Translations under genes and position numbers: made by a program
NCBI GenBank assembly: GCA_026392455.1
Contig: JAPLCB010000009.1
Coordinates: 186,001-250,000 of the forward strand
From: Propionibacteriales bacterium
GTDB taxonomy: Bacteria; Actinomycetota; Actinomycetes; Propionibacteriales; Nocardioidaceae
Direction of reading: 5' to 3'
DNA: 64,000 nt
The notes under the pieces: model-generated
Database searches by the model: none
Told to the model about the DNA's origin: nothing
The model's input: only the letters and a program-made list of their open reading frames with translations
In this document: piece after piece, positions 2,792 to 5,513 of the stretch
Position numbering within the stretch: position 1 is the stretch's first letter
Layout of the letters: every line of letters begins with the position of its first letter

Positions 2792-3049
2792 CTATCGGCC
2801 GAACGGACGATCCTCCGGGGCACCGAGGGCCTTGGCCCGACTGCGCCAGGACAGCACCGAGACCGTCGACCGTCCGGAGAGGACCGACCCGAGGCTGAGG
2901 AACGACCCGACCGCGAACGCGGAGCCGAACGACCCGATCGAGCCGATGGACGCGAACGACCCGATGCTTCCGATCGAGAGGATCGACCCGGTCGACCGGT
3001 AGGACAGGATCGACCCGGTCGACTGGTAGGACAGGATGCTGGCGGCCAC
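2792..3049 (-). CDS. small Ser-x-x triplet-repeat protein, function unknown
   Basis: 85 aa with a GTG start. From residue 4 to about 69, a serine occurs almost without exception at every third position (SILSYQSTG, then SILSYRSTG, SILSIGSIGS). The other two positions are mostly Ile/Leu/Val/Phe/Tyr or Gly. A 9-residue higher-order unit is also visible and is encoded by two 27-bp near-identical DNA repeats at 2981-3007 and 3008-3034. The C terminus is basic (WRSRAKALG). No signal peptide or membrane helix is obvious. Regular triplet spacing suggests a beta-solenoid-like or polymeric structure, but that is inference. The start lies 10 bases after the stop of the upstream hypothetical gene, so translational coupling is likely. 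I know no function for this type of protein. Confidence 0.7.
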   Translation of the reverse strand: MAASILSYQSTGSILSYRSTGSILSIGSIGSFASIGSIGSFGSAFAVGSFLSLGSVLSGRSTVSVLSWRSRAKALGAPEDRPFGR

Positions 3050-3058
3050 CGGACGACC

Positions 3059-3472
3059 CTACCGAAGCACGAACTCCTCGGCCCGGTGCCGGTGCGCCCA
3101 GAACGTCGGCCAGCCACCCCCGAGCCGTTCGCCGGCACCGAGCAGGAACCGGCCCCAGGCACGGTCGCTGACCGTCCACGGGTCACCGCCGGGGCGCGAC
3201 ATCAGGAATGCCACCGAGCTGGCCGCTCCGGGACCGTCGATGAACTCCCGGCAGAGGCCGACGAGGTCGGCCGTCGGGACGTCGTACGGACCGTCGGGCA
3301 GGTCGTCGAGCGTCAGGAGTGGTCCGACGGGTCGGTCGAACCGGTCGAAGAAGAGCATCCAGACGAGGCGCTGCTGGAACGATCCTCCGGCCAGGACGCA
3401 CTCCCAGACCTCGGCCAGCTCAGCGGCGTTGCGGACGGGGCGTTGGTCGATCGGAGGTCGTCGTAGCGTCAT
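3059..3472 (-). CDS. conserved hypothetical protein
   Basis: 137 aa from ATG 3472. Not assigned to a named family. A central segment (AASSVAFLMSRPGGDPWTVSDRAW) reads like a small actinobacterial family in which a Pro-Gly turn is followed by DRAWAR, often with a longer C terminus. Here the tail is instead Trp/His-rich (WPTFWAHRHRAEEFVLR). No signal peptide or membrane segment. It stands 67 bases behind the DNA methylase gene and 10 bases ahead of the triplet-repeat gene, all on the minus strand, so the three may form one transcript. Confidence 0.65.
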   Translation of the reverse strand: MTLRRPPIDQRPVRNAAELAEVWECVLAGGSFQQRLVWMLFFDRFDRPVGPLLTLDDLPDGPYDVPTADLVGLCREFIDGPGAASSVAFLMSRPGGDPWTVSDRAWGRFLLGAGERLGGGWPTFWAHRHRAEEFVLR

Positions 3473-3539: not shown

Positions 3540-5513
3540 TCAGTCGAGCAGCCGCGCCCTGATTGCCGCCTCGGCCGCCGGATCCGGACCGAACCAGGTC
3601 CGGTCGGCCTCCACCCGGACCGCGTGGACCACGGGGGCGTCGATGCCGTGCGCTGCGAGGACCGCCCGGTCGACCTCGGTGACCGCCGCACGGACGCCCT
3701 CGATCTCCGGCGGGACGCTACCGGGGCCGTGGACCAGGTTGAGAAGGTCGGTGATGCCGACCTCCAGCGCCGTGCGAGCCGTCGTGACCGCGACCGCGAG
3801 CTGATCGCCGGCGTCGCGGGCGGACTCCACCGAGTCCGGGAACGGGTAGGTCCGGCGGAGCCGCGAGGGGTTGTACCGGAAGCTCTGGTTCAACCGCGAT
3901 CCCCCGTGGTCGACCGCCCACAGCCGGTGCGGGGTGGAGGCCAGGAACGCGTAGACGCCCCGGTCGGCGGTCGGGTAGACGACGGTGCCGTTGCTGAACA
4001 CCGGGCCGGTCGCCACCAGCACCGGCCAGATGTACTTGGCGTGCTTGGAGAAGGCGATCGCCTCCGACTCCCCGGCCAACGACTCGTAGAGCCGGTCGAC
4101 GGGGCTGAGGAACCCCCACCACCGTCCGGCCAGCTGCGGGTACCTCGCGACCTGACCAGCGCGTTCCGCACGGACCTCGGCGAGGACACCGGCCAGCGCC
4201 GGCACGTCCTCCAGCGTCGCCAGCTCGACACCACCCAGGTCCAGCACGCAGCGCGAGCTGACCGAACCCGGCGCCGAGACCAGGTCCTCGCCGCTGAGGT
4301 AGTCCCGGACCCAGGGCGCGATCCGTGGGTCGGCCGCGACGAGCTCGGCGGCACCGGCTCGGGTGAGCAGCAGCGACCTGCCCAGGACGATCGTGGCCTG
4401 GTGCCCCGGGGGGATCCAGGCAGGCGGATCCAGCAGCCGCCGCTGGTGCCGGACCTCGGCGCGCCCCAGGCTCGGACCGATCGAGGCCACCGGCTCACCG
4501 TCCAGGACGCCTTCCAGGTCGACCTCGCTGCGGCGCATCCAGATCAGCGCGATCCGGACCCCGGCCGCGCCCGGCCAGGGCCGTGAGGTCTCCGCCCGGT
4601 ACAGCCGGAACCCCGCGGCCAGGGCACGTCCGAGCCCGAACCGGGAGCTGTCCCCTTCGGAGATCGCGTCCGGTACGACGAGCGCGACCACGCCGGCGGA
4701 CAGCAGCGCCGCCCGGGCCACGAAGAAGACCACCAGGTCCGAGCGGCCGGACTCCCCGCCCAGCAGGGTGCGCGCGTAGTGGTCGCGGACCTCCTGACCC
4801 ACGGCACCCCTGATGCTCTTCACCCCGAGGAACGGCGGGTTCCCGATCACCGCGTCGAAGCCGCCGGCAGCCATCACCTCGGGGGCGCAGGCCGACCAGT
4901 CGACCGGGATCCGGTCCCCGATGCCGGCGGCCTCGACGAGCGAGTCCCCGTGCCGGATCCGGTCGTCGAGGAAGTCCAGCGGGAGCCTCTGGTCACCGGC
5001 GACCAACCAGAGCGACAGCCGGCAGACCTCGACGGTGGTGAGGTTGACGTCGGCGCCGTACAGGCAGGTGGAGACCACCTCGCGCAGGCTCGGACCGTCC
5101 GGGTGCAGGCCGACCAGGTGGTGGGCCGCCGCCAGCAGGAAGATCCCCGACCCGGTGGCGATGTCGAGGATCCGCAGACCGAGCAGGTCCTCGGGCGCCC
5201 GGTCCGCGACCAACGGGGCCAGGGCGTGCACGACGACCTCGTCGGCCAGCTCCCGCGGCGTGTAGTGCGCACCGGAGTGCTTGCGGTCCTGCGCGTCGAG
5301 GAGGGTCTCGTAGGCCGAACCGAACTGCTCGATGCTGCCGACGTCGTACGACGCCACCGTCTCCCGGAGCTCGGCGACCAGGGCCGGGTCGGCCGCTGGG
5401 CCGGGCAGCACCCCGGGCGGCGGCACCAGGCCCTGGCTCTTCGCGCAACGGTCGAAGAGCTCGCGCACCACGACCCGGACAGCGGCCTGGTAGGCGGGGT
5501 CTCGGGGCCTCAC
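3540..5513 (-). CDS. class I N6-adenine DNA methyltransferase (Eco57I/MmeI-like domain)
   Basis: 657 aa with a GTG start. GAHYTP at residues 81-86 is motif X of the N6-adenine methylases. DIATGSG at 117-123 is the SAM-binding motif I, and NPPF at 225-228 is the catalytic motif IV. The C-terminal half (about 380-560) looks like a target-recognition region with SRLNQSFRYNPSRLRRTYPFP, as in Eco57I-class enzymes. It lacks an N-terminal nuclease domain, so it is shorter than type IIG enzymes (900 aa or more) and BREX PglX (about 1200 aa). No restriction nuclease gene is adjacent. It could be an orphan regulatory methylase, a remnant, or a partner of a nuclease elsewhere. The promoter lies between it and the divergent enoyl-CoA hydratase gene (37-base gap). 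Confidence 0.88.
   Translation of the reverse strand: MRPRDPAYQAAVRVVVRELFDRCAKSQGLVPPPGVLPGPAADPALVAELRETVASYDVGSIEQFGSAYETLLDAQDRKHSGAHYTPRELADEVVVHALAPLVADRAPEDLLGLRILDIATGSGIFLLAAAHHLVGLHPDGPSLREVVSTCLYGADVNLTTVEVCRLSLWLVAGDQRLPLDFLDDRIRHGDSLVEAAGIGDRIPVDWSACAPEVMAAGGFDAVIGNPPFLGVKSIRGAVGQEVRDHYARTLLGGESGRSDLVVFFVARAALLSAGVVALVVPDAISEGDSSRFGLGRALAAGFRLYRAETSRPWPGAAGVRIALIWMRRSEVDLEGVLDGEPVASIGPSLGRAEVRHQRRLLDPPAWIPPGHQATIVLGRSLLLTRAGAAELVAADPRIAPWVRDYLSGEDLVSAPGSVSSRCVLDLGGVELATLEDVPALAGVLAEVRAERAGQVARYPQLAGRWWGFLSPVDRLYESLAGESEAIAFSKHAKYIWPVLVATGPVFSNGTVVYPTADRGVYAFLASTPHRLWAVDHGGSRLNQSFRYNPSRLRRTYPFPDSVESARDAGDQLAVAVTTARTALEVGITDLLNLVHGPGSVPPEIEGVRAAVTEVDRAVLAAHGIDAPVVHAVRVEADRTWFGPDPAAEAAIRARLLD

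Follow-up and report, generated by a model that had tools for sequence, protein, structure and literature searches.

The serine-every-third protein and its locus

What kind of protein places serine at nearly every third residue, and does it belong with the genes that lie beside it? This question is raised by a small open reading frame in the window, i.e., the whole stretch of 64,000 nucleotides analyzed here. The open reading frame and the features closest to it are:

2792..3049, minus strand: serine-every-third protein, 85 aa, GTG start (open reading frame list with translation)
2979..3037, minus strand: 27-bp DNA repeat, 2.2 copies, 96% match (TRF), encoding the first 9-residue modules
3056..3061, minus strand: -10-like box TAGGGT, 6 nt before the GTG, a predicted leaderless promoter whose TAG doubles as the stop codon of the 137-aa gene
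3059..3472, minus strand: hypothetical protein, 137 aa, without a Pfam or NCBIfam match; a same-genus neighbour, not a family-wide partner
3540..5513, minus strand: adenine-specific DNA methylase with an MmeI-like target-recognition domain (Pfam)

The 85-aa translation, VAASILSYQSTGSILSYRSTGSILSIGSIGSFASIGSIGSFGSAFAVGSFLSLGSVLSGRSTVSVLSWRSRAKALGAPEDRPFGR, divides into the modules SILSYQSTG SILSYRSTG SILSIGSIG SFASIGSIG SFGSAFAVG SFLSLGSVL SGRSTVSVL, followed by the tail SWRSRAKALGAPEDRPFGR. Histidine is absent, and every one of the 22 serine residues falls in a single register. Allowing at most one miss, the every-third serine run extends over 23 positions (residues 4–70, with Ala46 as the miss), while the longest such run in 20,000 shuffles of the protein was 12. 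These results confirmed the original prediction that serine occupies almost every third position, and TRF also recovered the two 27-bp DNA repeats that it had reported. A weaker 9-bp array (2925–3023, 62% matches) overlaps the 27-bp repeat. A second copy of the gene was not found in a profile search of its own genome.

Coding status

Codon-usage scoring alone favoured an open reading frame on the plus strand (approximately 2832–3002) over the serine gene, as would fit a 9-bp DNA repeat artefact or coding by the opposite strand. Nine same-genus sequences, the window's included, were compared in an ungapped alignment. Of the six frames, the serine frame had the lowest mean pN/pS, at 0.52; the other sense frames gave 1.31 and 1.41 and the antisense frames 1.57, 0.83, and 1.57. 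Stop codons interrupt the antisense frame with 0.83 in six of the nine sequences. Change at codon positions 1, 2, and 3 amounted to 0.231, 0.217, and 0.395, respectively. Serine was present in at least 8 of the 9 sequences at 21 columns, three of which mix TCN and AGY codons, so that serine was kept through the codon switch. As judged by this comparison of sequences, the window gene is a real gene and its protein is under selection, and codon-usage scoring is unsafe for such a protein.

Absence of homologues at this locus in related genomes, or of a coding signature in comparative alignment, had been named beforehand as what would speak against the prediction. In addition to the substitution pattern described above, homologues were found at same-genus loci and, by tblastn (E ≤ 0.01), in 63 of 197 sampled genomes of the taxonomic family. 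Relatives at the protein level reach far past the DNA repeat, and the promoter signal described below is ordered; with the substitution pattern included, the non-gene reading is close to refuted.

The nonapeptide unit

Searches yielded 132 distinct arrays, of which the 121 with at least 20 triplets were used for the module, indel, promoter, and hydropathy counts; most of the 11 shorter arrays that were dropped are plain SVG or TGS repeats, while L082 and L200 look true but partial. Triplet position 1 was serine in 96.8% of cases in the 121 arrays, position 2 was mostly V, I, A, L, or F, and position 3 mostly G or L. Residue identity was raised at a lag of 9 (position 3, 0.463 vs 0.195 in shuffled arrays; position 2, 0.282 vs 0.137) and also at a lag of 18, but not at 3, 6, 12, or 15. 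The commonest modules were SVLSIGSVG (51 of 894) and SVLSIGSIG (21 of 894).

Length differences between close relatives followed the same unit. Inner gaps occurred in 18 of 95 nearest-neighbour pairs, comprising 15 single 9-residue gaps, one combination of 3 and 6 in the same direction, one of +6 and -3, and one counted as 3; the net difference was 9 in 16 of these 18 pairs. Among pairs with at least 70% identity, which are non-independent, gaps of 9, 3, 6, and 18 residues occurred 72, 6, 2, and 1 times, respectively, and disjoint pairs with at least 65% identity showed 25 gaps of 9, nine of 3, and four of 6. At 55% identity or more, where alignment of repeats is unsure, the corresponding counts were 450 gaps of 9, 409 of 3, and 182 of 6. 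Gain and loss of mostly whole 9-residue units among close relatives, as is expected of a structural module, supported the 9-residue super-repeat that had been proposed from the window protein. Family members are thus probably arrays of about 7–10 nonapeptide modules.

L090–L093, L096, L097, L205, and L206, which are for the most part plain SVG or TGS repeats, match the profile without showing the module rule and inflate searches. A subfamily formed by L073 (81-422), L074, L076, and L169, one of which comes from a named Nocardia, shares a tail LRVV...EPDL... that ends in CHCQT in three of the four and in HSQT in the remaining one, and that was unseen in the other listed arrays. Modules of L198, L207, L209, L210, and L211 contain histidine (e.g., SHHSILSIGSSHS), so that these relatives come closer than the window protein does to the His-Xaa-Ser pattern.

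Spread of the family

Genome tallies refer to samples rather than to all species. Within the genus, tblastn detected the serine gene in 12 of 24 genomes. A profile (A1) built from 12 family members matched 71 of 394 sampled genomes of the class at E 1e-8, with about three doubtful matches (G655 and G706, which are simple repeats, and G721), and 25 of 296 sampled genomes of the phylum at E 1e-5, with about seven doubtful (short arrays in G233, G271, G303, G420, G463, and G479, and G464, whose array L094 was not found again by a later profile). A scan of a bacterial and archaeal collection with six peptide patterns from one sequence, which reaches close relatives only, gave 12 confirmed loci, all actinobacterial by title. 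Their sources were Nocardioides marmoriginsengisoli, Blastococcus, Parafrankia, Kitasatospora, Nocardia, and metagenome-assembled genomes of Acidimicrobiia, Nanopelagicales, and other groups.

Matches to described families were scarce. Pfam gave no credible family match, with one of the 12 members matching Caskin1-CID at E 0.0083. NCBIfam matched the window protein with HxsA4 alone, below its cut-off, and the PDB matches all fell within TGS linkers of three engineered chains, with no solved relative. PHROGs returned nothing for the window protein and one weak match among the 12 members (E 0.0061), and PADLOC nothing for the window protein or, at E 0.01, for any of the 12. The window protein had no match among plasmids and phages, and no match of profile A1 to viral contigs could be confirmed; a search with the relative L070 did match 10 plasmid records, nine from Streptomyces and one from Nocardia. 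A description of the family was not found in the open-access literature searched, and the repeat strings were absent from the biological papers in it, with a chance match in an optics paper. The arrays apparently constitute an undescribed protein family of actinobacteria that extends over several families and classes of Actinomycetota.

Neighbouring genes

The adenine methylase upstream, recognized in the original prediction, is real: its product scored over the Pfam cut-offs for Eco57I, N6_Mtase, MmeI_TRD, and MmeI_Mtase. Its Pfam matches do not include a nuclease domain, and it is perhaps an orphan enzyme. Membership of the serine gene in a methylase gene cluster, also proposed there, found no support. 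Among 11 same-genus loci (the window and L103–L112; L062, probably from the same genome as L107, was left out), the methylase was found in three (the window, L107, and L108), the 137-aa gene in eight, an abhydrolase gene in seven, and an ECF sigma gene in eight, and L111 and L112 lacked all four. In the window, the ECF sigma gene is preceded by short intergenic repeats, ggttgcttgccgccccctgctggt..., seen by eye at positions 1–170.

Elsewhere, no neighbour was widely shared. The strand of 95 neighbours, which were called with a home-made gene caller and include four from the non-syntenic same-genus loci L111 and L112, was random: at position -1, 23 lay on the same and 25 on the opposite strand, and at position +1, 21 and 26, respectively (22 and 24, and 20 and 25, when the L111 and L112 neighbours were left out). 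No Pfam family occurred in more than three of 94 scanned neighbours. Across 99 loci, which probably include three duplicate genomes (L062/L107, L067/L237, and L069/L231), no gene cluster present in at least four loci kept a fixed place next to the serine gene across genera; one cluster came nearest to this, with members at place -1, in the same orientation, in two loci of different genera (L121 and L252). A methylase-linked function was accordingly rejected as a general explanation, and, outside a few close relatives, the proximity of the methylase is incidental.

A narrower association concerned the 137-aa gene. Matches to its product occurred in 75 of 149 genomes of the taxonomic family, and the serine gene was found in none of 21 more distant loci of this gene (L041–L061, flanks of about 1.5 kb). 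Within the genus, all nine genomes with a strong match to the 137-aa protein (E ≤ 1.1e-29) were among the 12 of 24 with the serine gene; weaker matches occurred in six further same-genus genomes, five of them without the serine gene. The two genes lie on different contigs in G119 and about 3 kb apart in G071. A local link between them within the genus is possible.

Predicted leaderless expression

The stop codon of the 137-aa gene (3061–3059) lies 9 nt from the GTG at 3049, which places the two genes close together; the original prediction took the start of the serine gene to be coupled to the upstream gene. Reading of upstream sequences instead revealed a -10-like box, which was then counted; the looser pattern [TC]ANNNT was likewise chosen after looking. 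Starts of members were set by our own rule (the nearest ATG within 25 residues, otherwise GTG or TTG), and control genes were taken from the same loci with a home-made gene caller. A [TC]ANNNT box starting at -13 or -12 was present in 68 of 118 members, as compared with 126 of 583 control genes (-13 to -11), and the strict TANNNT in 34 of 118 and 84 of 583, respectively. In members that carry it, the box ends 6–7 nt before the start. At -33 to -31, [TC]ANNNT occurred in 2 of 118 members. Shine-Dalgarno-like strings were rarer in members (28 of 118) than in control genes (210 of 583), and a search over 200 nt for known sigma-factor spacings gave nothing above shuffles. The box was present in 10 of the 11 same-genus members of the set, the window's included, and missing from L024; in the whole set, 50 of 118 members lacked it.

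The box was retained where a glyoxalase gene lies upstream instead (in G087, at loci L007 and L107, and at L062, which is probably from the same genome). Because it is kept beside a different upstream gene, the reading that the serine gene probably has its own promoter replaces translational coupling, for which support was not found: in the window, TAGGGT stands 6 nt before the GTG. Signals of this kind about 12 bp upstream are reported to mark leaderless genes, which make up 19.2% on average in Actinobacteria (PMC3160421), and the same -10 motif has been mapped in M. tuberculosis (PMC3898074). The serine genes resemble such leaderless genes (PMC3160421; PMC3898074) in having a box of the TANNNT type some 12 nt ahead of the start codon. 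Leaderless genes represent a mode of expression and not a family, and the share of boxes is higher in the serine family than among control genes. The pattern suggests leaderless expression from an own promoter.

Apolar middle and polar ends

Along the array, the polar fraction (DEKRHNQ) per module from the N-terminus was 0.258, 0.092, 0.015, 0.003, 0.001, 0.041, 0.133, and 0.200. W and R followed the same valley, being gathered at both ends of the array and scarce in its centre, and charge was nearly absent from the central modules. The longest uncharged run had a median of 47 residues in the 121 arrays. The best 21-residue hydropathy window of the array had a median of 1.49, with 1.42 for the window member, and reached 1.6 in 20 of 121 arrays; since 316 of 1113 neighbour proteins used as control also reached 1.6, this measure ranks the arrays no higher in hydrophobicity than ordinary proteins. 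In 42 of 132 members, a crude hydropathy rule picked out an additional hydrophobic helix at the C-terminus, which in many cases has a basic end; the window member lacks a separate tail helix. No signal peptide was evident by eye in the sequence. The apolar middle with polar ends resembles, as a sequence pattern, a membrane segment with interfacial ends.

AlphaFold2 was run with two alignments, of 12 and 13 rows. With the window protein first, mean pLDDT was 46.5 and pTM 0.20; with L066 first, these values were 54.4 and 0.23. Neither model contained strands. A low-confidence helix covered residues 44–75 of the window protein, and the sole residues of the L066 model with a pLDDT of 70–90 were 14 residues in its tail.

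Candidate folds and functions

The reading that is preferred here, tentatively, is that of a self-associating, membrane-seeking nonapeptide array, likely serving as a small structural membrane scaffold or patch. The serine gene would be expressed alone. Its product would form a beta-prone repeat, module stacked on module, that associates with other copies, with its apolar middle in or on the cytoplasmic membrane and its Trp- and Arg-bearing ends at the interface; a tail helix, in members that have one, would serve as an additional anchor. The coding signature, the spread of the family, and the nine-residue unit underlie this reading. The valley in polar fraction, the W and R at the array ends, and the long uncharged run argue for this arrangement, as do the tail helices and the pLDDT of 70–90 in the L066 tail. 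The part concerning an own promoter is supported by the -10-like box in most members, and the stand-alone part by the random strand of neighbours. However, hydropathy is moderate and matched by the control proteins, the AlphaFold2 models are of very low confidence and show a C-terminal low-confidence helix rather than beta structure, the window member has no separate tail helix, the box is missing from the 50 members mentioned above, and no neighbour hints at a membrane role. The serine protein may sit in or on the cell membrane, where its role would likely be a structural one.

The idea put forward in the original prediction, a soluble and very narrow beta-solenoid in which each coil comprises either nine residues, three on each side, or 18 residues from two modules, and whose serine ladders form a binding surface or polymer, is possible but somewhat improbable. 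The nine-residue indel unit and the lag-9 identity are as expected if each module makes up a coil or half of one, serine holds its register position almost throughout the 121 arrays, and the hydropathy of the arrays does not exceed that of ordinary proteins. Such a soluble fold is, however, difficult to combine with the long uncharged apolar middle, with two AlphaFold2 models that lack strands, and with PDB matches confined to TGS linkers in three engineered chains.

Solenoids and repeat proteins of known type resemble the array in part. RTX nonapeptide beta-rolls, with the motif GGxGxDxUx, share the nine-residue unit, but their Gly-Gly-x-Gly-x-Asp is absent from the window modules, which contain no Asp, and no RTX family occurred among the Pfam matches of the window region or of the 12 members at E 0.1. 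The left-handed beta-helix with hexapeptides, pentapeptide-repeat proteins, and insect antifreeze solenoids consist, like the serine array, of short and regular repeats in which small and branched residues keep set positions; they differ from it in repeat length, none appeared among the Pfam results, and the serine protein has no solved relative.

A helical membrane protein, with the apolar middle folded into one or two helices in the membrane and serine either incidental or making contacts between helices, would also account for the 47-residue median uncharged run flanked by W and R, and for the helix that AlphaFold2 placed, with low confidence, at residues 44–75. With 3.6 residues per turn of a helix, a strict period of 3 makes no helix face; many residues are beta-branched or glycine, and hydropathy is moderate. 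This helical arrangement is considered unlikely.

The low pLDDT and the very high serine content would suit a disordered serine-rich substrate, phosphorylated, for example, by Ser/Thr kinases. Strict 9-residue phasing, with preferred positions for hydrophobic residues, Leu, and Gly, is unexpected of disorder, and this possibility is regarded as distinctly unlikely.

Closest by sequence rule are the His-Xaa-Ser (HxsA) radical-SAM systems, in which the serine protein would be the precursor of a modified peptide. HxsA4 (NF038313) is likewise a short protein with serine at every third residue; it weakly matched all 12 members used for profile A1 (best E 2.5e-5), and some relatives have His in their modules. 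However, the defining features that were tested failed: the window protein scored 23.8 bits against a cut-off of 55 and contains no His, HxsC in its own genome, the sole genome tested, remained below cut-off (24.2 vs 267.9 bits), and HxsB was over cut-off in none of 12 family-bearing genomes. Weaker radical-SAM matches occurred in 10 of these 12 genomes and in 14 of 14 control genomes. No maturase was common to the neighbours, three of which are radical-SAM UPF0004 proteins. A modified-peptide precursor is therefore very unlikely.

Significance of the family

A more specific form of the preferred membrane array, speculative and itself rather unlikely, is a minimal solenoid with nine residues per coil, continuous serine ladders, and an apolar outside, which would assemble in the membrane and represent a widespread, often leaderless actinobacterial element of a kind undescribed before. 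If each coil contributed a rise of 4.8 angstrom, 7–10 coils would roughly span a bilayer, which is a geometric guess.

The finding is more general than this locus, as it concerns a widespread actinobacterial family that has a nine-residue rule and no model. Matches occur in 71 of 394 class genomes (about three doubtful), yet Pfam offers no model, the window protein exceeds the cut-off of no NCBIfam model, and a relative of solved structure was not found. A very strict rule, with serine at every third residue and modules of nine, that AlphaFold2 does not fold here offers a clean test case for the folding of repeats and for short membrane-seeking proteins. Even if the protein is not such a solenoid, a family model would still help to annotate a gene that codon-usage scoring missed here; if it is, a membrane-embedded serine-ladder solenoid would be a new protein architecture.
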